From: Undaria pinnatifida
Lineage: Eukaryota; Sar; Phaeophyceae; Laminariales; Alariaceae
Direction of reading: 5' to 3'
Assembly (NCBI GenBank): GCA_012845835.1
Contig: JABAKD010000016.1
Coordinates: forward strand, 7,285,919-7,349,918
Length of the DNA: 64,000 nucleotides
The notes beneath the pieces were generated by a model. The model ran no database searches, was not told where the DNA came from, and saw only the letters and a list, made by a program, of their open reading frames with translations. The translations under genes and the position numbers were made by a program. Position 1 is the first letter of the stretch. Every line of letters begins with the position of its first letter. Shown here one piece after another: positions 21,441-58,458 of this stretch.

Positions 21441-21473
21441 ATGTATACGTGGAAAAGGGTGAGTAAAAGAAGA

Positions 21474-24400
21474 ATGAATTTGGAAGCCGCGGCGGCGGTG
21501 TTAGGGGTGGCCGTTGACGCCGACCCGGAGACGCTTAAGGCCGCCTATCGACGGCTGGCATTGAGATGGCACCCGGATAAGTGCAAGGAGGCGGACGCGA
21601 AAGAGCGCTTTCAAGAGGTGGGGTACAACGCGAGGCTTGCTTTGCTCGTCTCTTGTGCTATTGCGCACTATATAGTATCATACTACTTGTTATAGTTTGC
21701 ATATTTGCTAACATTAACATTGTACTTGCTTTGCAGTATTGCTATTATTTAATAGTACTTGTGAGCGTGTTAAACCACGGGTATGTATTGCAAAGCTGCT
21801 ACTGCTACCTGGTAGTCTGTAGAAGAGCCGCGGTTTGACCTCTTGATTACGCTGTTAGTGCTTGTACTTATACTTGTATTTGTAGATCGTACTTGGTAAA
21901 ATTAGTTCGAAATCGTTCAGCTGCGAGTTCGATCAACGTAATGGTCGATACTCATCTTTGCAAGCTGCGTGATACTCCGGCCGCTCGTTTTTTACAGATG
22001 TATTAACCTTTGAATATGTATGGCTGCTATGGCTGCTGCCAGGGTCAGTAGGATATTTTTTTTACCAAGGACGATTTTTTGTGTTTGTACAAGATGCTGC
22101 TGTGCTGTAAGTAGGAAGCCGCAGTTCGATCCCTTGACTGACCGCTCGTACAGCTGTTACTTGGTATCGTATATACTTGGTACAGTAGTACTTGAACTTG
22201 TCGGTGGTGTATTTGCACAAGATGCTGTACGAAGTAGTACATAGGAGACGGCTTGACTGATGGCTCCCCTATACTAGAACGGCTTGACGGCTTGATTGAT
22301 CGCTCCCCTACACTTCAGAACGGTTTGACGGCTTGACTGACCGCTCCCCTACACGAGAACGGTTTGATCGCTTGACTGCCTGCCCCCCTCGAGTAAAACT
22401 ATCGTAATATATTCCGGCCGAAAGAGGCCTTGACGAAAGCATGTGTACTTTGATACACTAGTTTTATACACTACCTGGTACAAGGCTTTCCTTCGGAGTG
22501 GCCGTTTCTTAAGACAATTTACCATTTTATTACCTGGTAGTTAGTTTTGGGCTTTTATGCCAATTCTTGTTCTATTATAAAAATAAAAATACACTCCAGC
22601 TGTGAGATCGACGATTTTGTCGAAACTCATATTTGCAAGCTGTGTGTGATACTCCGATCGCGCGTAATACTGGGTGTGTGTCCTCATTTAATATTAAGGA
22701 TATAGGTCGGCGACTCCCCTTGGAACTACAGTGTAGCTTGTACCAGGGTCAACAGGGTGATGTTAGTCAGGCTGTGCGCGGAAACCATAAAACCCGTTTT
22801 TGAGGGGGACTAAATCTGACAGCTGTTGAAGGAAATGCATCAGTTTTATCAAGTGTATCCTGTAAGTCGTATAACTGGTGAGAGGAGGGCGGAGTTTTTG
22901 AGGGCGTGGAGGGGCTGGGTTTGAACAAGAGGGAGCGCAGGGGGGGGGGGGGGATATGCTTTCAAATTTTGTAATACCCTAGAGCTTTGTACTAAAAATG
23001 AACTTGTTCAAGATAGCGGTACTCCCGAAGTATGCCTGTTGCCGGCCGGTATGGCGGACAAGAACAAATTAATTGGTGCTGTATCATCCTCTGTATGTAA
23101 GTACTACAATAATAACAAAATATTAACTTTTCATAAAATAACAGGACAGTACGGCAGTGCAGCAGTACGTACGGTAGTAAAGGTATCATCCTCTGTATGC
23201 AAGTACTAAAAGAACGAAATAATAACAGGGCAGCAGTACGGCAGTACGGCAGTGCAGCAGTACGGCAGTGCAGCAGTACGGACGGTAGTAAAGGACAGAG
23301 GAGTGCAGCAGTGGGGACGGTGGTACTCCCAAGCACCAGTGGGAGGCCGGTATTTGAGAAACAAAAAAAAAGGTTCATCTCCCACAGGACAAAAAAGACT
23401 CCCACGTACGGAACGGCCCACCCACCCACCACGGACGACGCCGTGCACTCTCCACCCACCCACCGACCAAACCTTTACTACATGCAGCAGTACAGCTGTG
23501 CAGCAGTACGTACAGCAGTACACCTGGTACGCGGGGAGCAGCTACGAGTAGTTGGTTGGTTCTTGAGGACCTTGTATGAAACAGGAAACAGACGGGGGGA
23601 GTTTCATTTTTTGACGATACTCGACCATCTCGGGGAGCGAGCGAGCCGCCATCCACCACCCACCCACCACCCACCACCCACCATCCACCCACCATTCACC
23701 CACGGACCTAACCAGTACAGCAGTACAGCAATGCAGCAGTACGTAGAGCAATACACCTGACAGGCGAGCAGCAGCCGATTCGTTGGTTACAATGCTCTCG
23801 GGCTGGGCGGGATTTGCAATTGTTTACTATTCCCCGCCACGCCGGGGGCCAAGCGAAAAGCGCTCGCGTTGCCAATTCTGCGCACGGCGAGCGGCGACGG
23901 CTGGACGCTGCTGCCATTGGCCCTGGTGTTGTTGTGCTTGCTGTTGTTGTGCTTGCTGTTGACGCAGGCGCGCTTGTTGTGTCGTGTCCATGGCTCAAGT
24001 GGCCGAAAAGCAATTTGACAGTTTAATATGGTTTGGAGTTCGAAAAAATAAAAAAAGCGGGCAGCGACGAAGAAAAAACGGGGGAGGGGCAAACGAGCCG
24101 CCCCCAGGAGGGCAATATCCACACTCCCCCCTCGCCGAGGTGGGGCACCAACGGCCGTTCTTTCGCCGGCACGTCGTAGTGCTGCTGTGCGGATGGGACG
24201 TGGCGGCACCGCGAGGCCGCCGGAGGCCGAGTGGAGCTCGGGAGTCGCAGTTTTTTGGGGGGATTTTATCACCAAAATAAAAAAAATAAAATAAAAAAAA
24301 ACGCCACGACCACGTTAGCGTATTGTATAATTAGGATTAACTATTTTTTTGTTCGTAGTACGCATTATATCAGTCTTTACTCCGTAATACTGTTATTTAG

Positions 24401-27400
24401 TAAGTTTTTTGTATATTATACCTGGTGCCTGATACTGCTGTTGTAGTTGTTCGTTAGTTATTGATAGGTAAACTGGTTGGTTATTTTTTAGTTAGGTTGT
24501 TTTGTGTGTTCCCTGTTTCGGTGATGTGGCGTGTGTTGCGATGTGCTGAACTGTGTTTTGTTGTTTTTGTGTTACGGAGTGCATCTGGTGGTGTGTAGTC
24601 CAGGACATTAGTTGGCTGCTTTTGCGCTGTTGCGCGGGGGCAACTTTTTATGTCGGTATTGTTGGTTTGCGCAACAGGCGCCGGAAGGCGTGTTTCGCTG
24701 GAGGCGCGAAAAAAAAGTGGGGCAACTTTCTTGTGTTTGCCGTAGGCGAAAAGAGTTAAAACGTACGTGGTCAAGTGGTTTTCCCGCGTACGATCACGTG
24801 TGTATGGCGGAAACAATGTTTCCAAGCGTCTAAAAGGCACAGGGTCAAGTGGTTCCCAGGCGTACATTCACGCATATATCGCAAAGTTTTGGCTACGACG
24901 ACCCGTACCCCTTGGCTCCTGTTGTGCTGCGCCCAACAGACGCCAGAGCCCTAGTTAATGCTGTATGCCCTGTGGTATAGCGTATTGTTTTGTAGTGTTT
25001 TTTAGTGTATTGTATAGTAGTGTGTTGTGCATTTAATGTAGAGTAGTGTGTTAAAATGTGTTGTGTTTACCCCCGCCTGCGACGGCACCCGCGGCGCGTG
25101 CGACATGCTCGACGGCGTTGTGTGCGCCATTTGTCAGTATCCGTCCCTGCTGTGGCCGATTTTTCCTCCGCCCGCCCTCCCCGAGCCCAAGCTCAAGCTT
25201 GTTCGGCTCGCTACATACCCCCCTCCGCCCTCGTTCGGCTGCATGGTGTTTTCCCTTTTCAGCGACCTTTGCCCGAATGAACTAATACTGCACATTGTAT
25301 GCGGCTCTCGCCCGAATGGGCTCGTATGTCTTGACTGAACTGATTCCGACCGGACTGATTTCATTCACGCTGCCTGGGTATCGGGAATCTCGATCGGACC
25401 CTGCGAGCAGGTTTCGGTCGCCTACACTCGCTTGGTCCCTGCGGAGTCTGGGCGCGAGCACGACGGAGAAGGGTGAGAACAAGTCACCGCGGTCAAGGGG
25501 GGGGGGGGGGGGGGGGGGGGCGTTGACGTCGGGGCCTGCTTTTGTCCGTTTTCGGCTCTCGAGGTGTTCGCTGGGTTCTGAGCGGTCTTATCTTGGCCCG
25601 TGTAATACTTGCTCTCGCTTTTTTTGGGATAACCTCTTGGACCTAGTGTGGAAGTAATTTTGCAGTGGCAAAAGTTTGTTTTTCTGCACGACAGCACCTA
25701 TTTGGAACTAGATTCGGAATGTTGGTGATGGCCCGAACGCTTTACCATTGCTCCTACTTTTTCGGTAACAAAAGACTGTGAAACAGAGTTGTAATATTCT
25801 TGTAGCAACCCCTTTCGCACTTGCGTTTGCTTTTTAGATACAACCTACTAGGAATTAACGGTGGGGATGTTTTTGTAGTGATAGTAGCCGGTATTGGTAT
25901 TACTGATAAAAGGGTTAGACTAAGTACACACGTGTACCTACTTTTCGGTACCAATCGAGCACGACGGAGAAGGGTGAGAACAAGTCACCGCGGTCAAGGG
26001 GGGGGGGGGGGGGGGGGGGGGGGCGTTGACGTCGGGGCCTGCTTTTGTCCGTTTTCGGCTCTCGAGGTGTTCGCTGGGTTCTGAGCGGTCTTATCTTGGC
26101 CCGTGTAATACTTGCTCTCGCTTTTTTTGGGATAACCTCTTGGACCTAGTGTGGAAGTAATTTTGCAGTGGCAAAAGTTTGTTTTTCTGCACGACAGCAC
26201 CTATTTGGAACTAGATTCGGAATGTTGGTGATGGCCCGAACGCTTTACCATTGCTCCTACTTTTTCGGTAACAAAAGACTGTGAAACAGAGTTGTAATAT
26301 TCTTGTAGCAACCCCTTTCTCACTTGCGTTTGCTTTTTAGATACAACCTACTAGGAATTAACGGTGGGGATGTTTTTGTAGTGATAGTAGCCGGTATTGG
26401 TATTACTGATAAAAGGGTTAGACTAAGTACACACGTGTACCTACTTTTCGGTACCAATCTACTTGGAGTTGGAACAGCAAGTACGTGTACACAAACACAA
26501 CGTACTGCATGGACACGAGCTTATATGGTTCGAAGTATTGCCCTAAGGCAGTAATGTTCGGTAGTCGATCGAGACAGATACCAGATGGTTCTCGCTGTTT
26601 GTTGTCCGTAGAGCCTGCTGTGAGCGCTTTTTCCCTCCTTTTTTTGTGAAACATGCCTCATATTCTATAGAAATTCACCGCGTTTCGTACGTTGTCGTGC
26701 TGTGTTTGCGGTGGCCGTAACTGCTTCTTCAGACAAAACTAAACCTGCCTTTTGTGCGTGCTGTGTTGTATGTGTGCCAGGAGCGAGCACGACGACGTAG
26801 ACGAGATGCGCGCGTTCATGTCCATGTTCATGGAGCTAGTGGGCATGTTCGGGAGCGATATCCCGAACGGATGCGGGCCAGGCTGCAAGGGGGGACATGG
26901 GCACGTCCCATCCGGTGAGTAAATAAAAGGAAAAATAAGCACGAATTAGACCGGAAAATAATTATCTGTCCGGGAGATGCCCGGTACGGGACGCTACAGG
27001 ACGAGACGGGGCGGGCCGGGACGACTGGAAAAATTAAAACTGTCCTAGAGATTACCGAGATGCGACGCTACTGGGCGATATTGGATGGGGCGGGACAGTA
27101 CGAAGCGGGGCGAGGCTGGATGTCTCCCGATCTACTGGCTATCATATGTTGGCCTTTTTGTTTTGTTCCTGGAGATTTTATTCACGGTGGGTGGGTGTAC
27201 CCCCCTGGATCGTCATGATGCCATTTTTTAATGTGCTGCCGAGGGTTTGTGGATGGGTGTATATTTTCTGCAAGGCTGTGTTTAACGCCTTGACAACTGG
27301 TAACCCTTTTTCGAGGACAATTTCACTTGAAATTAGTATATGAAAGGATTTTGGGGCTTTAACAGGGGTTAATAGGGTTCTTACTCCTGGGTGTCTAATT

Positions 27401-30400
27401 GAGCATGACTAGACCAGGGTTGGTACCGGGGTAACCCCCAGTATGCACCCTACCAAACGCTCCCTTGATCGTTTTTGTGTTAAAAATTGGGACACAGTGT
27501 CCAGTAGAGGACACCTCGACGCATGAACCGAGCCTTCATGTCATTGCTCGCGTTTTTTTTTCGATGTGACTTGCACATTGTGTGATGTGAGGGGGTGCAA
27601 ACCCGCACTGTTGTATTGCCAATCCTGCGAGGCGTTTATGGTCCTACGGTTTACGGCCATGCATGATGCGATGATTACCCCCCCCCCCCCCCCCTCCCCC
27701 CCCCCCCCCAACCCCCCAACACACGCTTTGGCTTATTAATCGTCCATTGTTTTGTCCGTTTTCATGTGCAGGCATACCATCAGATATGGCGGGCATGTCC
27801 AGCACTAGCGTGGCGGTAAGTATGATGTTCGGCGAAAGGCCTCAGGAGGAGGTAAGAGGCAAAATAGTTTTTTTCGTCGCTTTCGGTGTCGTGGAAAGAG
27901 CGCGGGTTACCGACGGTTGTGCCGTGTTGGGTGCATCAATTTGGCGCGGGGGGGGGAAGCTTGCAGGCGGCACGTACGTTCTATACCACTCTGTCCGGAA
28001 GTTTAAGCACGCTTTTGATAGCTGTGTTGGGTGATCTATTTTGGGGAGGGGGGACGTGGGGGGCTTGCAGGCGGCACGTGCGTTTTATACCACTCTGGTG
28101 TAAACACTCTTTTGATATTCATCACCTGGTCGACGAGCGCTGTGCCCCGCGGACATGGGATGCCTTGCTGTTCTACCGTGTAATATGAACATGATATGAT
28201 TTTCAAGGTTACCCGTCGGCATGAGGTTAACTTGATATCCCGGGGGCGTCTCAAGTCGAACAGGGGGAACACAGGCGTTCCGATGATATGTGCCGTTTTG
28301 AGCTACGGTACTGATTTTGCTGCTGCTGTATGCTTCGTATACGTGGTATGAGGTCCGGCAATGTGTGTTCGAGTGTTGCGTTGGACGTGTTAATGTTGTC
28401 GTGGTTCTATCAGGAACCAGCCACACGCACACACACCGTGACTAATGGCACAAAGGCGAGAGCTTGGAGTGCGGCTGCCGTTGTACCGCTGCCGTTGCAC
28501 TGTTGTATTGCTGCATCATGCTTTTGTGGCTGCTAGGCTGAGCGGCTGTTTTTGCCAAAACAAATCCACCGTTCTTCTTGATCGTTTTGTGTGCCTATGA
28601 CAGCCCACAACCCACGCACATGCACAGAAGCGCGCACGCATACACACAGAAGCACCGCCGGTGGCTGTCACAATGGAATGCTGCTGCTGCGGCGTAGCAG
28701 ACTGCAGAGAGGCTAAAACAATTAGACTTATATTGTACGGCGGACGGGAAAGCGGAGCGAATACAAGATTGCGAGAAGAGAACTGGCTATTTAAAAACAA
28801 CGTGGGATTTTTCATGCACCTGCTCGGCTTGAGCACGAGGCGGAACGCAACCCTTTGAAATAGCCAGCTCAGCGACGTGAATGCTCGGAGCACCGCCACG
28901 GAGCTCAGCCGGGATCGAGACATGCGTCGTAATGTACCGATGGGCGCCTTGCGAGAAAAAACCTCGACTGCCGTAGAGGATGAATCCAGAAAAAAGTGCA
29001 TATTTTACGTAAGGCATACCAGGTATAACATATGAGTATGATAGGAGCAACGATTCAACAACAGACTTTACATATTTTGCATATGCACTGCTCTGTTTTG
29101 TCGTGGAACTCCCGGGCAGGCTTGGAGTAGCGAGGAAGAGGAGGGCGATGGGCGGGAGGAGGACTACGACCACGACGAGGAGGAGTTTGACCTAGATGAA
29201 GGTAAGCGTGTCTCAATCCCCAAAAACCTACACATGTAAATACCTATTTTGCTATTTTTTTTGTGCACCTGGCGTCGTGGCTTTTGCCTCCTCTGCAACC
29301 CTCGCGGCGTACGTTGTGTTGAGCGTGGTGTGCTCTCGCTTGCGTGTTCGCTTGCGCTTGAGCGTGGCTCATCTGCTTTGCGACGACGACGGTGGCGGCG
29401 ACGGCGGTGGCGACGGTGGCGACGTGCGGTACGTTGTCAGTATCGGGTCGAAACACCCATTCGTAGCAACCGTGCGCGCGTCGCGCCCGATTTTTTCAGA
29501 GAGTGTACGTCATATTTCGATTCACGCTGGTGGCGATCGAGATGGAAGATATCCAAAGCTGTCAAACACGTTCATGTTCTCACCGTTGTCGCCTGCGTAC
29601 CTGCTTCACGTAACGCGTCGCGATACGTCGATATTTCGATAGACCCGGAAACTTCTGATATGGTGCTTGCGATATGACATGCACACGATACCCAGCACTA
29701 ACACACACCTGCATACAAACCGCCGTTGTCGCATGCCCCTGTTTCACGTTTCGCGTCCGTCTCGCAGTCCGTTGCGTCTTGATGTTGTGAAGCAGAGCCT
29801 ATCGCTCACGGGCTGGAGAAAGTTTCGTTGTTTCGATAGATATTTAGATAAGATACCGATTTTATAAAATTATTCTAATGACGTCAGCTGTGAGTTCGAC
29901 AGATTTAGGGTCGATACTCATTTTTGCAAGCTGCGTACTACGTCGATCGCCCGTTTTTAATAAGTTTCATGAGTCAGGACCGATTTGTTTCGTGTGATAC
30001 AATATCGCCACTAACGCAAACATAAATACACACCATTGTTTCATGCCCATGTTGCTAGTTTCGCGTCTCGATACATCGATAATCGATATTTCGACAGACA
30101 TCGGATATGTTTTAGCCTGATATTCCGATCGATATCGGATATTTCGATAGGCGTCGAATCTTTCGATGATATGATATCCAACACCAACACTACCGCACGC
30201 CATTGTCGCATGCCTGTTTCACGTTTCGCCTCCCAACACCCACGTTTTAAGATTGCGAAGCAGAGCCCGACGCCCGCAAACAGGACGCCCGCGGCTATTC
30301 GCGTCCGATAGGATGTATCGAAAATTCGACATATCGAAACACCGATTTTTTAGTAATTCCTTGGTTATCGAATTTTTCGATATCATATATCTAACACTTG

Positions 30401-33400
30401 ACGCACCCATGCCCCTGTTTGCACGTTTCGCGTCCCGATGCGCACGCCTTAAGATTGTGAAGCAGAGCCCGACGCTCACGGACAGGACACCCGCGGAGTC
30501 AGAGGGGGTGACGACGGCGAGGCGGGTGCGGGGTCTTCGTCGGCTTCGGCGGCCGCTGTTGCTGCCGCTGCCGCTGCGGAGGCGTTTAAAGCGGGGGCAG
30601 GGGCTGCTGAGGTAGCCGGTGGGGAGTGCTTGTGGGAGCCGATGGTCCGCCACTATTTCCATATGAATCTGAAGGTGGGTGGACCTTCTGTGGAGGGGAA
30701 CCGGAGGGGGGACGGGGGTCAAGGGAGTAGGGAGAGGGGTGTTTGTGTTTGCGTTGGAGGTGGTGGTGTTGGTGGTAGTGGTTTTGATGCTGGTGATATT
30801 GCGTTGGTGGTGGTGTTGGTATCAGTGACGTTAGTGTTGGTGTTGATGTTGGAGGTGGCGGTGATGATGGGGAGGAGGGGTTAGCGGTAGTGATGGTGTT
30901 TGTGTTTGTGTTGGTATTGGTGTCCTTGTTGTGGTTGTTTTCAGTGTTTTGCTGTTGCGGTTGTTGTCGTTATGATTGTTGTTGCTGTTTGACTTGCTAT
31001 GGAAAATCCTTCTATCGTTTCAATGTACGTTTTGGCTGTGCCCCGGCGGGCAGGAGGAGGTGGAGCAACAGCGGGCGGCAGGGCTTGGGAGCGCAAGCGT
31101 GGGCTCGAGCGAGGCGGCGGAGCTGGAAGAGGAGGTGATCAAACTTGACGAATACGTGAAAACATAACTGGTACTACGCTGTCCGGCAATGTACGAACCG
31201 TTCGGTGTTATATATTTACAAGTAAAGGGTCCTTAAATACGAAGTATTTTTGTGTCTCGTCGGGTTTTTGGTTCAGTGTGTTGTTGGTTAGTTTTGAATA
31301 TGTGTACGTGTTTTTTACATGGCAGTTGTTATTTGTTTCTTTTGTTCGAGTTTTACTTTTTTGTAAATGTTTTGTGTTTTCGCGTATCGTACGTGTATGC
31401 GAGTTTTTCCCGAGGTGGCCCTCCTCCGGTGCGAGCTCTGTCTGACGCTTGGAGCGATCGCGCCCGACGCTAGCAGGCCCTTCGCCAGGCGAGAGCTCTT
31501 AAGAGGCGGCAGGACAAGAAACGAAGACAGAAGGAAAAGAAACAGAGGGCATCGGCGGCGAAGATTCAGGAGGCAGCCGATCAAAGAGACAGTGCCCAGC
31601 AAGAGGACGAGGTACGGAGCACGGCACAACCTCTCACTCCATCGCACCAACGCACGCACGCACACGAGTGTCGGGACCCCAAAAGGCTACCCTCCATCTT
31701 GCGCATCGTTGTTGTGGACGTTGTCGCGGACGTTGGTTGTTGTATTGTTTGCCGTTTTTTCTATTTTCTGTAGGTTAGTCGCCCCCCCCCGTGGTTGTAG
31801 TCGTTGCTGTTATCGTTATGATTGCCGTCGGTGTTGTGAGTTTTCGAAAAAACTTGTCAGTTTTTCCGTAGTTTAACCGATTGCTGTTGTCGCTGTCTTT
31901 TGTAGATTAGCCGGTGGCCGTTGTCGTTGTCGTTGTCGTCAAGCGTTATGCGTGTCAGTTTGTTCTCCTTTTTTCTGTAACTTAACCCATTTCCAACTCC
32001 TAAAAATGATCCTAGTCGAATTCCAAGTGTTTTGTCCCCATGTCGGGAGTGCGGTGCTAAAAGGGTTCCCCCCCCCCCCCCCCTCCTGCGTTTGGCGTCG
32101 ATAACAGGGGAAGACGGAGGAGGAAACGCTGGCGTCGAAGCGGAAAGAGGTGGTGCGATTGCGGAGAAAGGCGGAGGAAGACCGGAGGGTGGGGCTGTTT
32201 GCCGCGTGCAGGGCGGGCTCTGTCGAGGAGGTGGGTAAGAGAGAGGGGGACGGAGGGAGGGAGGGGGAGGGAGAGGGAGGGGGGCGGAGGGAGGGAGGGA
32301 ATGAGAGGCACGGAAGCGTAGTGAGGGTCGATTTGTTTACACCGCTGGTGGTAACCCTGACCTCAACAAGACGTGCCCTCAACATGTGCTTGACACATTG
32401 CTCTTTTTTTTCGCCAAAATCATTGTTCAAGACAGTTGGAAGGCTTGTTCGTTGTTATCGATGGTCATGCAGGGTCATCGACCATATGGCGGGCGTTGTT
32501 GGGGTGATAGTTGTGGTGGTGGTGGTGGTGGTGGTGGAGGAGGTCGTGGTCGTCGAGGTCGTGGTGATTATGGTGGGTGGTATTGTTTTGGTTGTGGCTA
32601 TTTGTATCTCAGAATGATACGATCGATCGACGCTCCTACTGAAACGCCTTTCTCCTGATGCGAATCCCTTACTGCAGGTGCGAATGATGCTTGGGACGGG
32701 GCTGGTTCGGTACCAGGAGAGAGAGAGGGGGAACGGGCAGACGGGGGCGTCGCTGCTCCACGCGTGCGTTACGGGCTTCGCGCGGGGCCCGGAGAACTCT
32801 CCCCAGCTGAAGGAGGTGGCGATCGGCCGCCTCAGCATAGCGGCGGTGAGAACTCACTTGCCTGTCCTTCCTTTTTCCCCTCCCTGCACGCCTCCGTTTT
32901 TGGTGCAGTAGTGGTCCCTGTATAGTTCCGGTATGTGCCAGCCGGGATTACCGGCACTGTAGCGGCAACCGGCACTGTAGCGGCAATCGGCACTACTCCG
33001 CATACTGCCACTGCTGTTTGTTTCATCTGTGCCAAGCGATTTCACAGGCACTATAGCGGGCAATCGACACTACTCGATCGGCACTATATAGGGATCACTA
33101 CTCGTAATGTGGTTGGTTACTGCGCGCTCCGTGTCTTTGTGTTGGGGTTACTTCCAGTCTGGTTCATGATGGGCTTTGTTTTTTCGTTGCGTGGTTGTCT
33201 TCACACTATCCCTAACCCTTTGGTTCTACTTAACGGCATCCCGCACACCTATTGCGGCGAAACAGCGATCGGCTGACGATGCTCGTGGATGCTTGAGTGC
33301 TTGGGCGGACACGAGCGATTTGATCGTCATTTGTTTTTCCATCCCACGGTGTATCGATCCCCCCCCCCTCCTTCGCCCTTCATGCGACCCGCGGAACACC

Positions 33401-36400
33401 TCACGGCGATTCGCGCTTGGTACAAGCAATGTCTGCTAGGTTGGTGAAAACCCGACGTGCCCCGTCCCGACATAGCAGGGATGCGAGGATCTATGGTCAT
33501 ACGACTACGGCCATGCACAAACTGAGTACACCCCCCCCCCACCCTCCCTCCCTCGCCCTCGCCCCCTTCTCTTGCCCCCCGCTCACCTTCCTCGCGTCCG
33601 TCCGCCCGCCTATATATGTTTTTGAACGGACGCGAGCGAATTGAAAACCATTGTATGTTCTACCCGAAGGTGTATCCACCCCCTCCCCCCACCCGTCCCG
33701 CGCACCTCCTCTTCGCATTCGCCCGCCCGCCCGTCCACCCGTCCCCTTCCGGCCGTGTTGGAGCAGATGATCCTCGCTGGCGTTGATCCTGGCGTGGATG
33801 CCGGGGCGGTGGACTCGGCGGGGCTTACGGTCCTGCACAGGGTGGCGGAGGCGTTGGATATGCCGTACTTGGCGCTGTTGCTGGAGGAGAGAAAAAAATC
33901 GCAAGGTATACCTATCAATGTGCAAATTGTGCTGTAGAGGTGATGGTGGCGCGGTGAGGGCGGAGGAGGGGGTGGTGGTGATGGTGGTAGCGGCGGTGAT
34001 AGTATCCCCTGGGCGTTTCTTGGTGTGGGGGCGATCCAACCATAACCTAGGACTCTATTGGAAAGCTCGAAAAGCGAGCCAATGCGGTGCTGTCCGGATG
34101 AGAAGGGTGCCACCACTACCTTTACCACCACCACCTGCCGCCGCCGCCACCACCACCACCACCACCACCACCACCGCCACCACCTCCTCCCAAGCGCCCC
34201 ACCGCTTCACTCCTCCCCCCCCCTCCCCCCCACCCCACCTCTCCTGCGATCCTCATGAAACGACTCCCCAGCACCATTGCGTCCCCCCTCCCCTCCCCTC
34301 CCCTACCCTCCCCTCATCAACCCCCTCCCTCCCCCGCTTCGCCTTCGCCACATTCGCACCCCGACCAATCAGCGCGACGCGATCAAATCCTCCTTAACGA
34401 GCGGTGTCTCTTGAAAGGGTGGACACCCTTGCACTACGCAGCCGCGGAAGGTAGCCCAGTAGGGGTTTCCACCCTCATTGCAGCAGGCGCTAGCGTTAGC
34501 GTTCACGGAGCGGTCCTTCCCGGTACCGGCTCTAACGGAAGCAACGGCGGGATTAGTTCCGGTTCGGGAAATGGAGGCGGTGGAACCGGGGGTGAGGGGG
34601 ATGGCGCGGAGGCGGGTACAGCGCTGCAGCTGGCGCGGGCGTTGCTCTCTAAGGAAGGGGCGGGGCCGCGGAAGAAGGGGCTACAGGAGGTGGCGCGGCA
34701 GCTGAGCGCGGCAACGCAGGCCGTGGAGCGGGCGAAGGAGCAGCGGGAGCGCAGGGACCGAGAGGCTAAGGTGAGGTTATAATCGCGTATGGGTCTTCAG
34801 ACGGCAATGTTGTCGAAACCAGCTGATGCTTACTTCAGCTTCGGCCACCCGATGTGATTCGACCTGCTGGGGTAGGAGATGTGTCCAAACCGCAATGCCG
34901 GTGACTGTGCACCGTGACGGTACTCGCACTGCTGCAAAACGGTCTTCCTACGCTAAGACGCTCTCGATTCGATCTCGCTCGTCGCTTTTTTTGGCCGGTT
35001 TCTATGGGTCTCGAAAGGATTCATTTACCCTTACGTGTCACTACAAGCACGTGAAAACACACACTAATTTTGAGTAGTTTTCCCCCAAAAACGTGGGTGC
35101 GGTTTGTAAAGGGGTTGAGCTCCCGACGGACTAGGTGACAGTCGATTGCGGAAGCGTTTTGGGGAGGGGACAGGGGCGGGGGGAGGGAGGGAAGGGATGG
35201 GGAAGGAGGGGGGCGGGGGCGGGAGGGAGGGGAGAGGGGAACGGGTATAGGGAGAGGAAGGGGGGTAGGGACCCTCGCCACCGAACGGGGCAGACGGTGC
35301 CGCGGGAGTAGCCCTAACAGCTGACGTACGATGGTTAACATAGGAACTAGACATGCCAGGCGACAGCGTTGGCGGCGGCGGGTGGGGGCGGCGGGTAGAG
35401 GGGCTGCAGTACGGGCGCGTCAGCGGATCATCCAGGCCGATTGACGCCCGTGGGCGCTATATAACGCCTCCAGAGAACATGTCACACGAGTTTTTAAAAA
35501 GTACCCCGCGTGTGATGTGTTCGCCAAGCGATAACATGGCGTCTGTGCCAACCAGGGTTTTTGCTGGCCGTGTCTGCTATTTTTTGTCCTGGCGGTAATG
35601 GGGGTGGCGATGGTGGTGCTGGCGGCAGCGATGGCGGCGGTGGCGGCGGTGGTGGCGGCGGCGGCGGCGGTGGTAGCGGTGGTGGCGGCGAGGTGGTGGT
35701 GGGTTCTTCAAAGAAGCTGGCGAACTCCTTTTTTGTGTGTGTGTTTTATACCGTTCTGGCTCGTGAACCTTTCTGAACGCAAACGTGCGGGCCATGACGA
35801 CACGGTGGCTTACAATAACGAGCTGCTGCTGCTGCTGCTACTGCTGTTATTACTGCTGCTGCACCTTGATTGCTTATTGTTTTCTGCTGCTTGGGAAGGA
35901 GAGGTACTGGCTGACATATCTACCGCAGTATCTACCTCTGTGGCGCGCCCCCATGTCTTTGCTTATAACACGCGTCTGGAATCCTACTGCTGTGCAGTAC
36001 GCGTTCCCGAATTATAGAGAGGCACCGAATGGTCCAACGTCCCATCCTCCGATTGCTGTGAGCTGCGAAGAGTGTTGTTTTTGTAGAAGGGTAACACTAC
36101 TGCTACTACTGTTTGTGGTAAGACTACGCGGCAACCCTAAGCCCGGTTCTAACCCGTTTCCAAAACAAGCCAAAACTGGCTTGGTCTGAAACGCTGCTGC
36201 GCCGCTTTCGCATCGAAAGAGAATTTTCCGAACTGCGGACCTTGATTTGCCTTCCTGGCCATAAAAATGGAGTATAAAAATCCAGGAAGTGTGCCTCCGA
36301 GCACTTCGTTAGAAGTAGAGGCCAGCGTACATTTCCGACACAGGCCAGCGGACTGACGCCGAATTTCCGTACGCCCTCCGCCCCCACCTCCACGCGCGTG

Positions 36401-39400
36401 TGTATTACGTTTGCGTTTTCGCGTATGGTTGTGGTTGTGCGTGTGCCTGTGTTCATGCTTGTGTTCGTTCATGTGCGTGTTCTTGCCCTTGTTCTTGTGT
36501 TTGTGCGTGTGCCGTGCTTGTGCTTGTGCCTTCGCTTGCCCGTGTTCTTATGTATATTTTGTTCTTGTGCTTATGCTTGTGCTCGTGCCCGTACGCGTTC
36601 CATGTACTCTTGCGTGTTGGGCTTGTGTTGTGTCGTGTTTTGGTTTGTTTTTTGGTTTGTTTTGTTTTGTTTTCGTTTCTCGGCGACAACACACGACGCG
36701 GAATAACGAATTTCGCGGCATAATACAACCCAGCTGGCGAAGAAACGGTCCGAGGTTCAGAAGGAAAAGAAGAAAGAGGCGAGGGAGAGAGAACTGCTCT
36801 CCCGGAAGCAGCGGCAACTCAAGGACAAGCAGGTGCCCACCCCCCTCGGACCTCGAACGCATTGTAGGTATCTGTCCCTAGCTCGCCGTAAAAGTGTCTC
36901 GGATGGGTTGCTGCCGCGTGTCGGGAGAGAAGGTATAGTAAGAGAGGAGCGCCAGGAGAGGGCGGATGGGGGGGGGGTGTACTCGTATCGTGCATTTAAG
37001 ATCATAGACTCTCACATTCCCACAACGCCAATACCGAGCGGGAGGCGGATTTTTACGGGTTGTTGGCGCGTGCCGAGAAAAGTCGAAAGGAGCGCGAGAA
37101 GGGTAGTGATGAGGGCGCGGGGGGTGTGTGTGTCTTGGATAGGCTGCCGCGTTGGCGCGAAGGTGGGGGAGGGCGGGAGTGGGGGCTAATGGAATAGCCC
37201 TTCCGCCGATAGCGTCCGGCCAAGCGTGTGTTGGACTGACGAGCTCTGTAGGTGCCATGAAGGCAGGCCCGTTTTCAGGCCTGTTTTGTTTTGTTTTGTT
37301 TTGTTTTGCGTTACTACGTACTTCGTACAATTTTATTCTTATTATTTATTTTTTTGTGACGCCGGTCCGCGTGAAACAGGAGCGGCAAGAGCGCGAGGAG
37401 CGGCAGGAGGAGGAGAGACAGGGCCGCAAAGAGGAAAGCAGGGCCGAGGAGGGGAGGACGAAAAAGGCCAAGAAAGCCAAGAAGAAGAAGAGCAAAACGG
37501 GTGAGCACCCTTTTTTCACATGAGTGCCCGCGCCATCATTATCATCGCCACCACCATCATCGCTACCGCCCAACCTGCGCAGCGGAAGAGTACTCTCTCT
37601 CTGGGCCATAGGGCATACGTATACCCCCCCCGCGTGCTCGCATTACGATAGACTCAAGTCTTGTATACCTATGAAAGGGCATCCCGTACTTAGTCCAAGT
37701 AGTTTGTCCGTGAAAACGTGGGTGCAATTCTGAAAGGCATATCTTCCGTTGTTCTTCCCTGCTTTGCCCCTGCTGGCTACTTTCTCCATTTCGTTCTGTG
37801 TTTGCCCGCACACGAACCTGTTCTTGAGAAGGGGGTGACGATGACGACACGGCTGCTGCTGCTGCTGCTGCCGCCGCCGCTGCCACCACCGCGACCGCTA
37901 CCGCTACTGCAAGAGGTACCGCGAACGGCGCGGGAGGCGAAGATGTCGTCTCTGGTAGCGGTGCGAGGAGAGGGAAGGAAGAGGAGACTAAACCGGCGCC
38001 TGCTAACAGCAGCAGTCCACCGGGTGCGCCGTCATCGCGGCAGCCGCACTCTGCGGCGGGGGGTAATACTGGCGTGAGCGCTAGTACTGTCGCGAGTGGT
38101 GTCGGCAACGGGGGAGGCGCTACGCCTGCGGTGTCGGAGAGCGCCCATGAGTCTTGCATGTCGAGAGACGACCTCCTTGCTCAGGTGAGTAACGGGTTTG
38201 CTCCGCCACGGGAAGGCGTGTTTTGGTGCTAACCCTTTTAGAACTGCGTACAACATTCTGACACAAATTCCAAGTAATTTGTCCCGAAAAACGTGGGTGC
38301 AACCCCCCCTCGGAAGGAAGACGCGGCGGAAGAGAGCGAAGGGAACCGTTGTTGGCACCCCCTGTTCTCCACAAGAAGCTACGAACTCGTCCACTTTCCG
38401 TGACGATTTCGTTTTTTGAATGTGAAGTAGCGCCTACAAATATCAAAATCGTAAACCGCGTTAGCCGCACGAAGATTGGGGACTGGGGAAGACGAGGGGT
38501 GGGGGAGTTTAGCGCTCATCCTCTCTCCCACCCTTGTCCGTGCCTTTTGCGTTGCGTCCGGACCGCCTCGCTTCGAAATAATTGCGCGCGACGGACCATC
38601 CCCGCAGTTGATAACGATGGGGTTCCAAGAGCAGCATGTGCACCGCGGTACCTCGTGTGTCGGCTTCGATCTAAACGCTCTCTTGTCTTGGTTGGTCGAC
38701 CATCCGGACGGCGGGACGACTCCCGCGGAACAGCAAGCGAGCGCGGGGGCGAGGTGAGGGCGTTGACGACTTCGGCGAACGGAACGTCTGCAATATTGAA
38801 CGTGTGTTGGGGGGGACCGGAGTTGGCGACGAGCGCGAGAGGTAGATATAACGTCGGATTACTGTAGAGGAAGTTGATGGTGATGTCCTCTCAGTAGCTC
38901 GTTTCCCTGGCATCTAGCCCGCGGTCGCCCTAAAGGCTGAAAAAGCATGTCGATGCCCCCCAAAAAAAAGGTGCGGCGGACGGGCACAAGAGGCGCAAGA
39001 TGCAGACCGTCCGCGGTTCTTTGGCGCCTGCGTTGTTTGGTGTGTGGGAGCGCGTTGCTCCTGGGTTTGGCTGTTGTGGTTGCGGTGGTCCTGGTGGCCT
39101 TGATGGTCGTGGTCGTGGTGCAGGAGAAGGCAGTAAGGCCCCGTTATTTTTTCCTGCTCGTCGCTGTCCGGATCTGTTGTGTCGGTTTCTTTCGTTCCAA
39201 CTGTGCCGTTGCCTTGTGACTGAGCAACTGACTTGGACGCCCCGGGAAGCATTAGTAGTACCGTCATAATCCCCCTCGTACCTTTCTTCTTTCTCCTTCT
39301 CCGTCTCCTGATCTGCTCGCGCTGTACGCCCGCCCCCCCTCGACATAATAACAGCAGCAAGGCGACAGCAAACACCCGTCGCAAGGGCACCTCTAAGGCG

Positions 39401-42400: not shown

Positions 42401-42741
42401 AACCCTTTCCCTCTCCTCGGAAGCGGCGGTGGAGTGGGGGGGCTCGGGATAAGCAGCAAGCCGATGCCTCGCGCGACAACGATGTCAGGCTCGAAGCCGC
42501 AAGGTATACCACCAGGCTCGCCCGTCGTGCCGATTCAACGGAGTGTGGTGGGGGCTGCAAGCCCCGGGGGTGCTAGCGGTGGGGGTGGTGGCGGTGGTGG
42601 TATCCGCGCGAGTGTAGCGACAGATAACATCAAGGTTAACATCCACAATGGTCGCGCTCCGTCGCCCGGAGGTATCGCTGTTGGCGGTAGCGGCGGTGGT
42701 GATGTGGGGGCAAGCAAGGGTAGCAGCACCGTTACTGCCCA

Positions 42742-42773
<32 letters not shown>

Positions 42774-42784
42774 GACAGCAACAT

Positions 42785-42831
<47 letters not shown>

Positions 42832-42970
42832 ACAGCAACAACAACAGCAGCAGCAACAACAGCAACAACAACAGCAGCAGCAACAGCAGCAGCAGCAGCA
42901 GCAGATTAGTGCCTCTGCTAGGCGCGGAGCAGGAGATGCCGCGGGGCGTCTGACCGGTAGCGCCCAGCGA

Positions 42971-43019
<49 letters not shown>

Positions 43020-46000
43020 TGCTCAACAAACACGCGGGGGCTGTTCCTTACGGGAACAGGGCTGGGGTTTCCAACGGCGCTGGCAATAGTGCTGGGGGGG
43101 CTGTAGCCGGCGGAGGGGTTGGAGTGGGATCTCCAGCGGCGGGGCCGAGGGCAGCACCGTTTCCGCCGGGGGTAGGACGCGGCCTAATGGCCCCGATGTC
43201 AGGGTTTCCTGCGCACGGTGAGCAATGAGCTGACGTGGTAACAGGAGTAGTACCGTTGCATATCAAGCCCCCGGTGCCAACATTTTGGACTCTAAAAACC
43301 TTTTATGTGTACTCCATGGGGTGTGGTATACAATGTACCCCGGTGTTAAGCTTGGCGGTTGTTTTGGAGTTGACAACAAGTATCACCGGGGTGGTGTACT
43401 CCAGGCGGTGTGATATGCAACATCCCGGGTGATAAACGCCGTCCTACACGGTAGCTGCCCTGGCCAAGCACCCTAATTTAGTGCTGGGCTGCGGCCGGTC
43501 GCTGTTCCCCAACGAAAACGGGAGGAGAAAGAAGACGCTCACGTCGAGCCCCAACATTTTTTTTCGTGTTCTATTTTGAGAAATGTTTATTTGCCCTCGA
43601 ACGTGGACATCTCGTGAAAATCGTATTTTTCCTTTCTTGCCTCCATGCTTGCGGCTCTGCCGAGGCCTCATCTCCGCTATCTCCCGCTCGCCCATTGCGT
43701 AGGGTAGAAAAATGCTCTCTCGCTCTCACGCTGAACGGAAGGCTGTCGCCACCGGGTAATTGTCAACGACAAAGAACACGCCCTCACTAGATGCAGGATT
43801 AACGAAAGAGTAGCCATCCCACGGTAGGGGAGCAGCATATTCTAAGATTTTTCTGAGCTCCTAACATGAAGAGCTAGCTCAATATCTCACCCGAAACTTG
43901 ACTTGAAAGGCATTCGTCCGCCCAACCCGACCAAGCTTCTACTCCCTAGCCCTAAACCCAATTGTGCTCGTAAAGTTATTGGACTAACTGGTAGTTCCTC
44001 ACTTGAAGAGCCCAACCGGCCAGAGGTGTACGTTTTTTTGGCTCAAAAAGTGCAACCCCTAGCGTGGTATGACTCGAAAGGCAATGTTAATGCTGCGTAC
44101 CTCGATTCCATGCTGTATTATATGGCTTTTCATCAGTCCTGCGTTTAGTGAGGGCGTGTTCTTTGCTCTTGGCCTTCACTGGGTGGCGAAATCGTTTTTT
44201 TCAGCGCGAGAGCGAGAGCGCTCCGTTCGACCCTCGTGGACGAACGTGAGATTGTGGTGGTGAGCCCTCAGCAGAGCCGCTGCCATGGTCACTGCTGGAG
44301 TCTGATTGGCTGGCGTATGATCGAACGGAAGGGCGGAAGAAATAAAAAGTTAAAATGACCCGAAACAACTGCCATGCAGCTAGCCCACTCTTCATCCGAA
44401 TCGCTGAACAACCCACGGCGCTTCGCACTTTTCACAACTGTTTGATCGGCAAAAACCCGAAGTGCTCCGTCCCGGCTTCTTAGGGATGCGAGGGTCTACG
44501 GTATGCAGCGATGCATGCTAATGAGTACAATCACCCACACATCCACAACAAGATGGGGACAAGATGAGCAAGTGTTTTTTTTTAATGCAACGCATGAAAA
44601 AAAATGTGCTGAGCGCCCAAATGTTGAAGGTGTATATTATAGGGGTAGGAACGGTGTTTCGTCTTGAAAAGGATGCGTAGCGACAAGTCAAACGAATAAG
44701 GCAACCAGCAAATGAGTACCCCCCCCCCCCCCATTCTATGGCATTCTATGGTCATAAAACTACGGCCATGCACAAACTGAGTACAACTTCCCCCCCCCCC
44801 TTCCCCCCCCCCCCACCGCGTTGTCGGCAGGCCCAGGTCCGCACGCTGCTCCCCCTGCCGGAGCACCCCTAGGAATGCCCATGGGCGTTCCGTCTCACCT
44901 GGGTCACATGCCGCTGGCTGGACAGCCCATACCGTTCCCTGGTTTCAGACACGCGCAGTCGGGTCAGAGTTACGGCCCGCTGCAGGCCGCCCGCCGCCCG
45001 CGCGGCACCCCCCCGCCGGGACCGCATGGGTACGGCGCTTCGCCGACGATGGGGCCTGCTGTGTTGCCAGCCCAACAGGTGTGAACCGTTTTTTCTTTTT
45101 TTCCTGTGAATCTTTTTTTTCTTTTTCCTGTACACCTTTTTTTTCTTCGCGTGTATTGGCGGGGTGCTTGCGAGCGGCCGGGCGCAACCGCGATTAGCGC
45201 GGTTTTGGGTTGGGTTGGGTTGGGTTGGATTGGGTTGGGCTGGGTTGGGTTGGGTTGGGTTGGGCTAGGCTGGGCTGAGCTGGGCTGGGTTGGGTTGGGT
45301 TGGATTAGGTTGTGCTGTGATGTGTTGCGTTTCGTTGTGATGCATTGTGTTGCGTTGTGATGTGTTGTAGTGTTGTGTTTTTGCATTTTCCCTGCCCTCG
45401 CCCGTTTGCACTGTGGTGTACTTTCATCACCGTACGCGTTCCGGCGGTTTGCGTCCTTGTCCTACCCTTGCTTATGCTCTTGCACGCGCGTGTCTTGCCT
45501 TTTTTTGCCTCGATCTTGCCGGCCTCCCCGCCACAGCAGCCCCGGGGTCCGGGTCAGCACGCGGAGTGGGCGGCCCGGCAACGTGCCGCTGCCGCCGCCG
45601 CTGCCGCCGCCGCCGCCGCGGCCGCTTCCGGCTGGAGCAACAGCCCAGCAGTACCCGTGTCCGGAGCAGGTGCAGGGCCAGGGCTGCGTCCGCACTCTAT
45701 CCAACAGCAACATCCTCAACATCACGGCGGTGGTGCTGCAGCGCCGCCGACGGGGTCCCCGATGCCTTGGGGGGAGACGTGGGGGGTCGCCCCTCGGGGT
45801 GGTCAGGCTGTGGCGCTTGTTGCATCGGATGGGGATCGACCGGCGGGTTCACCCGGGCTCGCGCAGCAACACCAACATAGAGAGCGGGAGATGGGCAGTC
45901 TTCAACAGCAGCAGCGACGACGGCAACACCAGCACGAGCAGCAGCAGCACGAGCAGCAGCAGCAGCAGCACGAGCAGCAGCAGCAGCAGCATCACCAAGG

Positions 46001-47066
46001 ACAGCATCGGCAGCGGCAAGAGGCAACGGCAACGGCGGCCTCAAAAGCGGCCGCTTCTTCGCCGGCCTCTTCAGCGGTGACGACCGCGGCAGGGACTGGG
46101 TCAGCAACAACGACAACGACAACGGCAGCAGCAGCAACAGCAGTAACGACGACAACAACGTCAACACATACTCCGTCGTTATCGTCCTCCCGACCGGACT
46201 CTCCAGACTCTCCAAACGATATCTCACTTGCGATGCAAAACGGCGAGCTCTCCGCCGCCGCGCGGGTGTTCGTCCCCACGAACACCTCCCCAGCCAAACC
46301 GCCAATGCAATCCGCGGGCGTAACTGGTACTCCGGGAAGACGCAGTCGAGCGAGCAGCTTCGGCATGGCAGGACTCTCGTCGGCGGGGACAACGCCCCCC
46401 AGACCTCCGGCAAACTCCGGCAGCAGTCCCGCGTTGAGGCCGTCCCCGGCGAAGTCCGGGGTGTCAGGCCTTGGACTCCCGCTAGGCGACCGCGTGTTCG
46501 GCTCTTCCTGGGGAAGCATGGGCAGCGGTGGCGGCGTGGGGAACGCGAATACAGGCTCTTCCGCGGCTGACGTGGGCGGAGAGGGGGACACCAGCGCTGG
46601 GGGTCTTTGGGGCACTCTTGGGATGGACGTGGGGGGAACTGTGCCACCCAGCGGACAGGCCATCTGGGGCAGCAGTTCTCTGTTAGATTCCACTCTTTCT
46701 GGGAGCGTTGGTGCTGGCGGAGACAACATGTCTCTGCTCTTAGCGCCGTCCACGGGGGCTGCTGTTCACGCAACGGTTGATAATCCCACGATGTCGTCGT
46801 TCGCGTCTCCGCTGGATCTTTCTCCGTGGGATGTTGGCGGGGGGGGTGGAGGGCGAGGGGTGGGGGGCGGGGCGGCAGCCGTAGCTGTCGACGATTTCGC
46901 CGGCAGTCTAAGTTCGTCGCTAGGAGAGCTTCAGTTGGATGTACCTTCTAACAAGAACGGAAGGAGTAAATCCGGCGAGCAGCAGCAGCAGCAGCAGCGA
47001 CAGCGGGGTTTGTTTGGGGCAGGGGCGGGCTCGGCTGGTTCTACGGGTGGACTAAGTTGGGGTTAA
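21474..47066 (+). CDS. J-domain / ankyrin / UBA-like / polyglutamine protein, 24-exon gene
   Basis: Candidate exons: 21474-21617, 25411-25472, 26781-26914, 27772-27851, 29120-29201, 30505-30674, 31054-31155, 31477-31611, 32108-32230, 32678-32845, 33767-33905, 34373-34770, 36734-36832, 37380-37500, 37829-38184, 38608-38753, 39355-39621, 40274-40341, 40670-40839, 42056-42138, 42206-42262 (doubtful), 42307-43217, 44831-45078, 45537-47066. Every border is GT..AG and phases agree at all 23 junctions, giving 5,793 nt and 1,930 residues. Domains: J domain 1-60 (HPD at 33-35), ankyrin-type repeats about 332-494, basic helix about 580-652, UBA-like about 772-815, polyQ about 1180-1234, low-complexity C-terminus. 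J domains stimulate HSP70 ATPase; ankyrin and UBA segments usually bind protein and ubiquitin, so a chaperone-adaptor role is inferred. The start is the ATG just before J helix I; an in-frame ATG at 21441 or an upstream exon is possible. Exon 7, 18 and 19 borders are the least certain. Confidence 0.85.
22568..22955 (-). repeat. Dispersed ~0.55-kb repeat, copy C, inside intron 1
   Basis: Reverse orientation of the 5265-5790 family, from the GAGATCGACGATTTTGTCG end to a G12 run. It lies in intron 1 of the J-domain gene, antisense to it. Confidence 0.75.
23200..24000 (-). repeat. CAGCAGTACG array and inverted partner of 20049-20700
   Basis: From 23228 the motif GCAGCAGTACG is repeated several times, then again at 23480-23522 and 23713-23745. 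CACCCACCCACC-rich blocks lie at 23410-23465 and 23652-23705. The order is the mirror image of 20200-20640. It lies in intron 1. Confidence 0.5.
25454..26459 (+). repeat. 502-bp tandem duplication covering the end of exon 2
   Basis: The segment 25454-25955 is repeated at 25956-26459. By eye the copies differ by one substitution (G at 25811 versus T at 26315) and by the length of a G run (24 versus 26). Each copy starts with the last 19 nt of exon 2 and its GTGAGA donor. The first half of exon 2 and its acceptor are not repeated. Very recent event, or an assembly artefact at the G run. Confidence 0.85.
27282..27372. mobile_element. TTAACCCC-type MITE in intron 3
   Basis: Ends TTAACGCCTTGACAACTGG and AACAGGGGTTAA, with the shared core GAGGACAATTTCACTTG. 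It lies in intron 3 of the J-domain gene. Confidence 0.55.
27640..27710 (+). repeat. Repeat with C-tract end before exon 4
   Basis: TTTACGGCCATGCATGATGC is followed by TTAC and a C tract of more than 30 bases broken by one T. It stands 61 bp before the exon 4 acceptor. Confidence 0.55.
29575..30504 (+). repeat. Diverged direct repeats in intron 5, the last abutting exon 6
   Basis: The segment ATGCC(CC)TGTTTCACGTTTCG ... GTGAAGCAGAGCC(C/T) ... CGCTCACGG recurs at about 29733-29815, 30207-30290 and 30410-30504. Between the copies are AT-rich palindromes of the type ATCGATATTTCGAT. The third copy runs right up to the exon 6 acceptor, so that acceptor lies inside the repeat unit. Confidence 0.55.
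32907..33115 (+). repeat. ~200-bp repeat shared by introns 10 and 17
   Basis: AGTGGTCCCT, GTATGTGCCAGCCGG, repeated CCGGCACTGTAGCGGCAA and GGCACTATAGCGGGCAA appear in the same order at 39680-39870 in intron 17. The internal 16-18 bp CCGGCACT unit is locally tandem. Confidence 0.6.
33437..33545 (+). repeat. Repeat with C-tract end, intron 10 copy
   Basis: Shares GGTGAAAACCCG.CGTGC.CCG, GGGATGCGAGG.TCTA.GGTC, ACTACGGCCATGCA and a terminal C tract with 6355-6518, 27640-27710 and 44440-44816. All four copies stand within about 20-220 bp upstream of a predicted splice acceptor. Confidence 0.6.
36400..36625 (+). repeat. CTTGTG/GTGTTC minisatellite in intron 12
   Basis: Irregular 6-12 bp units (GTTCTTGTGCTTGTGC and variants) over about 220 bp, followed by TTTTG pentamers near 36640-36675. 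TTTTG pentamers also occur near 37286-37310. Confidence 0.8.
36734..38184 (+). other. Exons 13-15: Lys/Glu/Arg-rich helix and low-complexity linker
   Basis: Exons 13 and 14 encode about 73 residues made almost only of Lys, Glu, Arg and Gln, ending in the basic cluster [12 protein letters not shown], a possible nuclear localisation signal. Exon 15 begins with an Asp run, continues through an Ala/Thr repeat derived from a GCT/GCC triplet tract near 37853-37915, and ends in a Ser-rich segment ([17 protein letters not shown]) leading straight into the UBA-like exon. The exon 14 to 15 phase (1) fits only the acceptor at 37827-37828, which has a weak pyrimidine tract. Confidence 0.7.
38608..38753 (+). 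other. Exon 16: UBA-like domain
   Basis: The exon reads [11 protein letters not shown], then [18 protein letters not shown]. This is the layout of a ubiquitin-associated domain: an MGF loop after helix 1, a glycine before helix 3, and a hydrophobic LLxWL ending in HP. Nearly the whole domain sits in one exon of 146 nt, with phase 0 at the start and phase 2 at the end. It suggests ubiquitin or ubiquitin-like binding. Binding itself is inference, because UBA folds can also bind other partners. Confidence 0.7.
39680..39870 (+). repeat. ~200-bp repeat, intron 17 copy
   Basis: Matches 32907-33115 in order and orientation, more diverged, with GGCACTATAACGGGCGACC near 39803. Confidence 0.55.
40485..40592. 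mobile_element. 108-bp inverted-repeat element in intron 18
   Basis: Outer ends TGTTTAGTA and TACTAAACA are perfect inverted repeats. Inside are two ACCCGGGT palindromes with flanking CATG. It lies wholly inside intron 18. Confidence 0.5.
42307..43217 (+). other. Exon 22: Gly/Pro-rich region with long polyglutamine
   Basis: After a Ser/Thr/Pro/Gly-rich start the exon holds 55 nearly uninterrupted Gln codons (42740-42904) broken only by one Arg and one His. A second Gln run follows at about 42968-43018. CAG and CAA are mixed, so the tract is less slippage-prone than pure CAG. The reverse strand over the same region reads as poly-Leu or poly-Cys; those long open frames are shadows. The exon closes in a Gly/Ala/Pro segment (GFPAH) at a GTGAGC donor in phase 1. 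Confidence 0.8.
44440..44816 (+). repeat. Repeat with C-tract end, intron 22 copy
   Basis: Two stretches (44440-44530 and 44738-44816) of the same family as 33437-33545. The terminal C tracts end 14 bp before the exon 23 acceptor. Confidence 0.6.
44831..47066 (+). other. Exons 23-24: Pro/Gly-rich and low-complexity C-terminus, stop codon
   Basis: Exon 23 is Pro/Gly/His-rich. The terminal exon 24 (510 codons with stop) starts [20 protein letters not shown], runs into about 15 Ala, then His/Gln and Gln/Glu/His repeats near 45900-46010, then Ser/Thr/Pro/Gly-rich sequence with scattered short hydrophobic motifs ([23 protein letters not shown]). It ends [11 protein letters not shown] before TAA at 47064-47066. 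The long reading frames on the opposite strand here are shadows of the GC-rich third position. The region looks intrinsically disordered. Confidence 0.8.
45206..45302 (+). repeat. TGGGT pentanucleotide array in intron 23
   Basis: About 95 bp of GGGTT units with a few T/C and A substitutions, followed by degenerate TGTGTTGCG sequence. It resembles a G-rich quadruplex-forming tract on the coding strand. Confidence 0.9.
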
Positions 47067-57978: not shown

Positions 57979-58008
57979 TAAGATGTACCAGAGGTATCAT
58001 ACTTAATA

Positions 58009-58158
58009 ATGAATTATCCTTCGAAGATACCCGAATGGCTCCCCCCGTGGATGCTGCCCGAGGGTGAACATCAACAACATATTACCGTATTAATGGTAGC
58101 AACTACCATGTACACAACAACAACAAAACAACAACAACAACAACACCAACAACACCAA

Positions 58159-58199
<41 letters not shown>

Positions 58200-58245
58200 A
58201 CAACAACAACAACAACAACAACAACAGCAGCAGCAGCAACAACAA

Positions 58246-58277
<32 letters not shown>

Positions 58278-58458
58278 TTCACCCCAAGGGAGTAAGTTAT
58301 ACCAGGATGGTCCAGTAAAGCACACGGCAGTACCGTCATACCGGTATCGATTATTAACATCATACATAAGTGTTCTCCCCATGGTTCCGGTGTCTCTGCT
58401 CACATCTCTCCTCATCATGGCTCGCTGTCTAGACGCAAGACTGACGTTAGTACTCTAA
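58009..58458 (+). CDS. ORF spanning a CAA/CAG tract, coding status uncertain
   Basis: The frame starts MNYPSKIPEWLPPWMLPEGE, crosses about 50 Gln codons (mostly CAA with some CAG and two His interruptions) and ends in a hydrophobic tail (SVLPMVPVSLLTSLLIMA). The start looks protein-like, but a triplet repeat keeps frames open by itself and no neighbouring exons or poly(A) signal were found. It could be a microsatellite only. Confidence 0.2.
58117..58275 (+). repeat. CAA/CAG triplet microsatellite
   Basis: Mostly CAA with blocks of CAG. Unlike the polyQ of the J-domain gene, no splice-consistent gene surrounds it. Confidence 0.9.

Follow-up and report, generated by a model that had tools for sequence, protein, structure and literature searches.

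A stretch of 64,000 nucleotides from Undaria pinnatifida (GCA_012845835.1, JABAKD010000016.1, 7,285,919-7,349,918, forward strand; hereafter the window) was analysed, and a single in-phase exon chain joining a J domain, ankyrin repeats, a UBA-like domain and a long tail with polyglutamine was rebuilt from it. The whole coding region runs from 21474 to 47066 on the plus strand, as do all the features given below, and its phases and translation yield 22 exons, 5466 nt and 1821 amino acids. The computed results support the open frame, the J domain and the ankyrin repeats, and they support the UBA-like domain weakly. The favoured reading, to which about an even chance is given, is that of one nuclear gene for a class C J-domain co-chaperone that would act as a scaffold: its ankyrin and UBA parts would select the clients that HSP70 is brought to, and its tail would sit in assemblies, perhaps of the mRNP type. 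J-domain proteins decide where HSP70 acts. One chain in which a J domain is combined with docking parts of the ubiquitin type and of the poly(A)-binding-protein type would physically tie together folding, degradation and mRNA granules, and if only the head of the protein works, the domain order would still be one that the literature searches did not show for this co-chaperone family.

The gene model was rebuilt from the sequence, with an open frame, splice signals and a matching phase as the criteria for each exon. Exons 1-8 were placed at 21474-21617, 25411-25472, 26781-26914, 27772-27815, 29120-29201, 30505-30674, 31054-31134 and 31477-31611; exons 9-16 at 32108-32230, 32678-32845, 33767-33905, 34418-34770, 36734-36832, 37380-37500, 37832-38184 and 38608-38753; and exons 17-22 at 39355-39621, 40767-40839, 42056-42138, 42307-43217, 44831-45078 and 45537-47066. 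The rebuilt coding sequence showed a single stop, at its end, with no internal stop, and all the introns (21/21) are bounded by GT and AG. The first-pass annotation, made from the letters of the window, had proposed the start at 21474, the stop at 47066 and the plus strand; these were confirmed by the rebuilt chain, and the J domain with its HPD, the ankyrin core, the MGF...DLNALLSWL segment and the polyglutamine all fall within it. An in-frame ATG at 21441 gives 11 more residues N-terminally. The 23 in-phase junctions claimed earlier are not those of the rebuilt model, which has 21, but the number is reached with two optional exons, 35344-35394 and 37039-37125, which are in phase and keep the frame open. 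Both stay candidates outside the model, the former because it would break the charged stretch and the latter for its poor acceptor; the exon number is thus provisional, 22 in the model and 24 if both candidates count. A minus-strand gene opposite exon 22 (e.g. ORF 45697-46947) was rejected, the best minus-strand stretch having scored 24.1 vs 50.5 for the plus strand.

Two further observations concern the surroundings of the exons. A tandem duplication at 25455-26299 of the window, with a spacing of 501-503 bases and with stretches of 300 and 66 bases that are 100% identical, begins within the last bases of exon 2 and duplicates the donor site of that exon; it must have arisen very recently, or else it is an artefact of the assembly. 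A 263-aa open frame at 6500-7288 (plus strand) resembles the exons of the gene in codon usage (score 18.8) and gave no Pfam match over the cut-off; it is perhaps an exon of another gene.

The evidence for one reading frame was then weighed against chance. The joined coding sequence holds 41 stops in frame +1 and 47 in frame +2, with only the terminal one in frame 0, and the profile matches of the J domain, the ankyrin repeats and the UBA-like domain each cross a splice join. As the splice sites were partly selected on such features, these figures and the following ones lean towards the model: G precedes GT in 21/21 donors, G stands at both -1 and +5 in 17/21 compared with 7.8% of all GT sites there (1874 in number), codon usage (leave-one-exon-out) was best in the modelled frame for 20/22 exons with exons 2 and 18 as the misses, and GC was 0.56-0.72 in exons and 0.43-0.62 in introns. 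Exons 4-8, between the J and ankyrin parts, gave no recognised domain in the Pfam scans, so what links these two parts is the matching phase and the open frame, together with the splice sites and the codon usage. This plain stretch and the length of introns 1 to 5 (3793, 1308, 857, 1304 and 1303 bases) would suit two neighbouring genes, one for a small J/acidic protein that starts with exon 1 and ends at about exons 5-8, the other for an ankyrin-UBA-polyQ protein, with phases that fit on paper. Such a division is quite improbable, since the 22-exon chain runs in phase with no stop before 47066 and the modelled frame is also the best-scoring one for exons 3-8. We infer that all the exons belong to one transcript, which is the gene structure of the favoured scaffold reading.

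The J domain (aa 9-61, 21498..25449) is encoded by exons 1 and 2 with an intron of 3.8 kb between them. The profile search that had been proposed as a check returned Pfam DnaJ with 52.9 bits and an E-value of 4.1e-14 (cut-off 27.8), and the HPD lies in the RWHPDK of exon 1, an exon that was also recovered by a whole-genome DnaJ scan at 49.3 bits. The PDB matches include DNAJB8 (2dmx) and CbpA (3ucs), and also HSP40, with E-values of about 1e-10; the alignments of the two best, DNAJB8 and CbpA, cross the exon 1/2 join without a gap and so tie together the two exons that lie 3.8 kb apart. Pfam scans over aa 1-1071 and 1125-1821 gave no match to the domains that mark classes A and B, the zinc finger and the C-terminal DnaJ domain. 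By this predicted domain content, a J domain with HPD and without the class A/B domains, the protein would be assigned to the class C type. The role of HSP70 co-chaperone given to it earlier is well supported by the sequence, as the HPD is intact and the J alignments cross the exon join gap-free, and the step from J domain to HSP70 is the best supported one of the proposed mechanism.

Helix IV of the J domain looks non-canonical by eye (AESGREHD). This feature, the richness of the protein in Ala, Gly and Gln (15%, 14% and 9% of its residues) and the CAG/CAA repeat behind the polyglutamine would fit an ankyrin protein of mainly structural or regulatory role, with a J domain no longer working with HSP70 and a tail derived from microsatellite growth. 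Such a protein is very improbable, as the intact HPD and the matches to DNAJB8, CbpA and HSP40 structures argue for a working J domain, as in the favoured co-chaperone reading. Elsewhere in the genome, 11 J-domain matches were found within 411 kb (G000:C36:7279523-7690932), 10 of them at 85.6-89.2 bits, a clustering that suggests an array of related genes.

The stretches around the ankyrin part were read mostly from composition. Exons 3-5 (26781..29201) translate into a Met/Phe-rich, then a Gly/Cys/His and then an acidic stretch; Pfam gave no match in exons 3-4, including the Met/Phe-rich and Gly/Cys/His segment 26781-26914 just after the J domain. Exons 6-9 (first part; 30505..32185) form by eye an Ala-rich, charged linker. 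The ankyrin repeats follow at aa 311 to about 528 (32186..34719), with about four repeats followed by an insertion rich in Gly and by a final, degenerate repeat (...EVARQL); for repeats 1 and 2 and for the final one, the limits were judged by eye. The ankyrin-type repeats of the first-pass annotation held up in the profile search that it had suggested: four Pfam models, Ank_2, Ank_4, Ank and Ank_3, scored above the cut-off and Ank_5 below it, the best being Ank_2 with 2.3e-10 over aa 383-455, a match that spans the join of exons 11 and 12. Repeats 1-2, when scanned by themselves, had no Pfam match. In the PDB, many ankyrins were matched, among them ankyrin-1/2 and the proteasome subunit PSMD10; ankyrin repeats are common to these and to the present protein, and this is a generic repeat match in which the architecture is not shared. 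Exons 12-14 (34720..37500) then encode a long charged Glu/Arg/Lys stretch, the end of which could by eye be a nuclear localisation signal.

The ankyrin-UBA part was also used as a query against the own genome, where 8 matches were obtained among 47 scored candidates, 5 in the window and 3 elsewhere. The three outside matches (E 1.9e-5 to 1.2e-4) are all confined to the query's ankyrin repeats, and no second high-scoring copy of the ankyrin-UBA part was found among the 47 candidates. One scan of viral contigs, with the ankyrin part as the query, returned no relatives.

The UBA-like domain (aa 730-769, 38164..38706) lies across the exon 15/16 join and was recognised through UBA_7 and PDB UBA chains. 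UBA_7 matched with E 1.2e-3 on a segment of 308 aa and with 7.5e-5 and 1.1e-4 on fragments, at 19.2 to 23.0 bits, below the Pfam curated cut-off of 27. The real fragment matched three UBA models, and its shuffles were without any Pfam match in 9/9 cases. In the PDB the segment gave 7 matches at E up to 10, the best at 0.0057, of which 6 are, by name or presumably, UBA-bearing entries. An AlphaFold model of exon 16 only, built with no alignment, was poor (pLDDT 65) and contained two helices; it carries little weight on either side. The UBA-like domain announced earlier therefore stands as a pattern beyond chance, with all nine shuffles negative, but as a weak one below the Pfam cut-off; a ubiquitin-binding module is plausible but weak.

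The first-pass annotation had suggested an adaptor between folding and degradation, which is possible; the PAM2-like and GW features of the tail speak no less strongly for mRNA-protein particles, of which that annotation makes no mention. In its sharper form, a proteasome-side adaptor would use its ankyrin and UBA parts to take ubiquitylated clients over from HSP70 and pass them on to degradation, and its tail would be no more than a flexible extension grown by repeats. The presence of the UBA-like domain and of PSMD10 among the ankyrin matches, generic as that match is, agree with such an adaptor, which is still rather doubtful because the Pfam scans contained no proteasome-binding module, the UBA is weak, and the PAM2-like and GW features would be unexplained.

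The polyglutamine, encoded by mixed CAG and CAA codons at 42740..43018, was found in two runs. The first, aa 1071-1125, has 53 Q out of 55 residues with a longest run of 40 (32 CAG and 21 CAA codons) and was identified in the tandem-repeat search as a 6-base array; the second, aa 1148-1163, has 16 Q. The long polyglutamine described earlier is thus real, with 40 Q in a row, but it is a CAG/CAA repeat. Other Q-rich spots occur in this genome, in the ORF 57982-58455 of the window and in open segments at an ataxin-2-type locus, so polyglutamine is not peculiar to this gene. For these two reasons its suggested condensate-forming role is in itself doubtful, and the polyglutamine may be plain repeat growth. 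Long trinucleotide arrays were also seen in the window, (CTA)n at 12076-12343 and (ACA)n at 58114-58277, the latter reading as a long polyglutamine run in the ORF 57982-58455.

The Gly/Ser/Ala/Gln-rich tail encoded by exon 22 (45537..47066) is probably disordered. Its PAM2-like and GW features are new relative to the first-pass annotation. A PAM2-like peptide at aa 1548-1559 (46242..46277) follows the strict motif L[NS]xxAxxFxP. In PMC2854688, PAM2 is defined by a hydrophobic residue at position 3, an N at 4 that is sometimes replaced by S, two invariant residues (A at 7, F at 10) and, as a rule, P at 12; the peptide fits at 3, 4, 7, 10 and 12, but it lacks the P/V of position 5 and the E preferred at position 9. 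The strict motif arose in 10/20000 shuffles of exon 22 and 31/20000 of the whole protein, and a looser form in 15/5000 and 14/5000, figures that overstate the case, as the tail was read for any known motif. The Pfam PAM2 model had no match to the tail peptide. It likewise misses the double PAM2-like peptide at the ataxin-2-type locus (KSALRASAKEWKPNPAAKEWRP), so this model is no judge here. At position 10 the peptides of that locus have Trp, as against Phe in the tail peptide, a point that counts against PAM2. The locus itself (L015:5035-6520, G000:C38) shows an open segment with the double PAM2-like peptide (LRASAKEWKPNPAAKEWRP, with Trp in place of Phe) and after it another long open segment that is rich in Q, and lies about 5 kb downstream of the single LsmAD match of the genome.

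The exon 22 tail also contains 9 Trp, of which 7 adjoin a Gly (GW/WG type), a number reached in 36/10000 shuffles. The wider GW class, with W beside G/S/T/N/D, comprises 8/9, but it is reached in 1341/10000 shuffles and so shows nothing. Possible partners of these motifs are encoded in the genome. The MLLE domain, the partner of PAM2, was found as two exon pieces at one locus (G000:C22:12120666-12121074) and may belong to a PABP or to a UBR5-type protein. The Piwi domain of Argonaute type was found at a single locus in six pieces, of which five scored over the cut-off and two had a stop read through. MLLE, Piwi and LsmAD, like the introns, are in keeping with a eukaryotic genome.

Put together for the favoured scaffold reading, these parts suggest the following mode of action. 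The N-terminal J domain, its HPD intact, would stimulate the ATPase of HSP70. The ankyrin stack and the UBA-like domain, spaced by charged stretches, would select what HSP70 meets, as such modules do elsewhere; their targets would be a protein partner together with a ubiquitin or ubiquitin-like surface. The low-complexity tail of about 1050 residues, with polyglutamine, PAM2-like peptide and GW motifs, would place the protein in multivalent assemblies. From the short motifs, these assemblies would most likely be mRNA-protein particles, reached by a putative binding of poly(A)-binding protein.

Comparison with known systems puts this combination in context. Yeast Swa2/auxilin contains UBA, TPR and J parts and DNAJB2 contains J and UIM, so that both carry a J domain and a ubiquitin-binding-type module in one chain, as here. 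A J domain and a UBA in one protein are therefore not new as such, Swa2/auxilin being the precedent. The present protein differs from Swa2 in having the J domain N-terminal, ankyrin repeats in place of TPR and a long polyQ/GW tail. The earlier annotation knew of no well-studied protein with this exact order, and the literature searches agree, the order J, ankyrin, UBA, polyQ and PAM2-like not being found in the library searched; what was already known is the pairing of J and UBA.

The tail invites comparison with two further families. Ataxin-2, according to PMC4105795 and PMC12898128, combines polyglutamine and a PAM2-type peptide in a low-complexity chain, and this it has in common with the present protein, in which no Lsm or LsmAD was matched. 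Membership of the ataxin-2 family was ruled out, as the Pfam scans of the protein gave no LsmAD and the one LsmAD match of the genome is at a separate locus. For GW182/TNRC6, PMC5785596 gives the domain order UBA, Q-rich, PAM2, with GW motifs, and an RRM between the PAM2 and the C-terminal GW part. The same order of UBA, Q-rich stretch, PAM2 and Trp-Gly motifs is seen here, where UBA, PAM2 and GW are each weak alone. The likeness seen is one of domain order, the PAM2-like peptide here being putative. The N-terminal Argonaute-binding GW part of GW182/TNRC6 is replaced here by J, ankyrin and charged stretches. Neither the segment from exon 22 nor the piece of it that was scanned matched an RRM in Pfam, and on this ground membership of the GW182 family was ruled out while the likeness of order was kept. 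It is conceivable, though unlikely, that a J/ankyrin head has been set on a GW182-like tail that docks poly(A)-binding protein and perhaps Argonaute, the particle thereby carrying its own starter of refolding or disassembly; if true, a GW182-like plan would have been reached outside animals with a chaperone built in. As a scaffold of the kind favoured here, the protein is a J-protein and so of a known kind, and its domain order, not found in the literature searched, appears to be a new arrangement of familiar parts.
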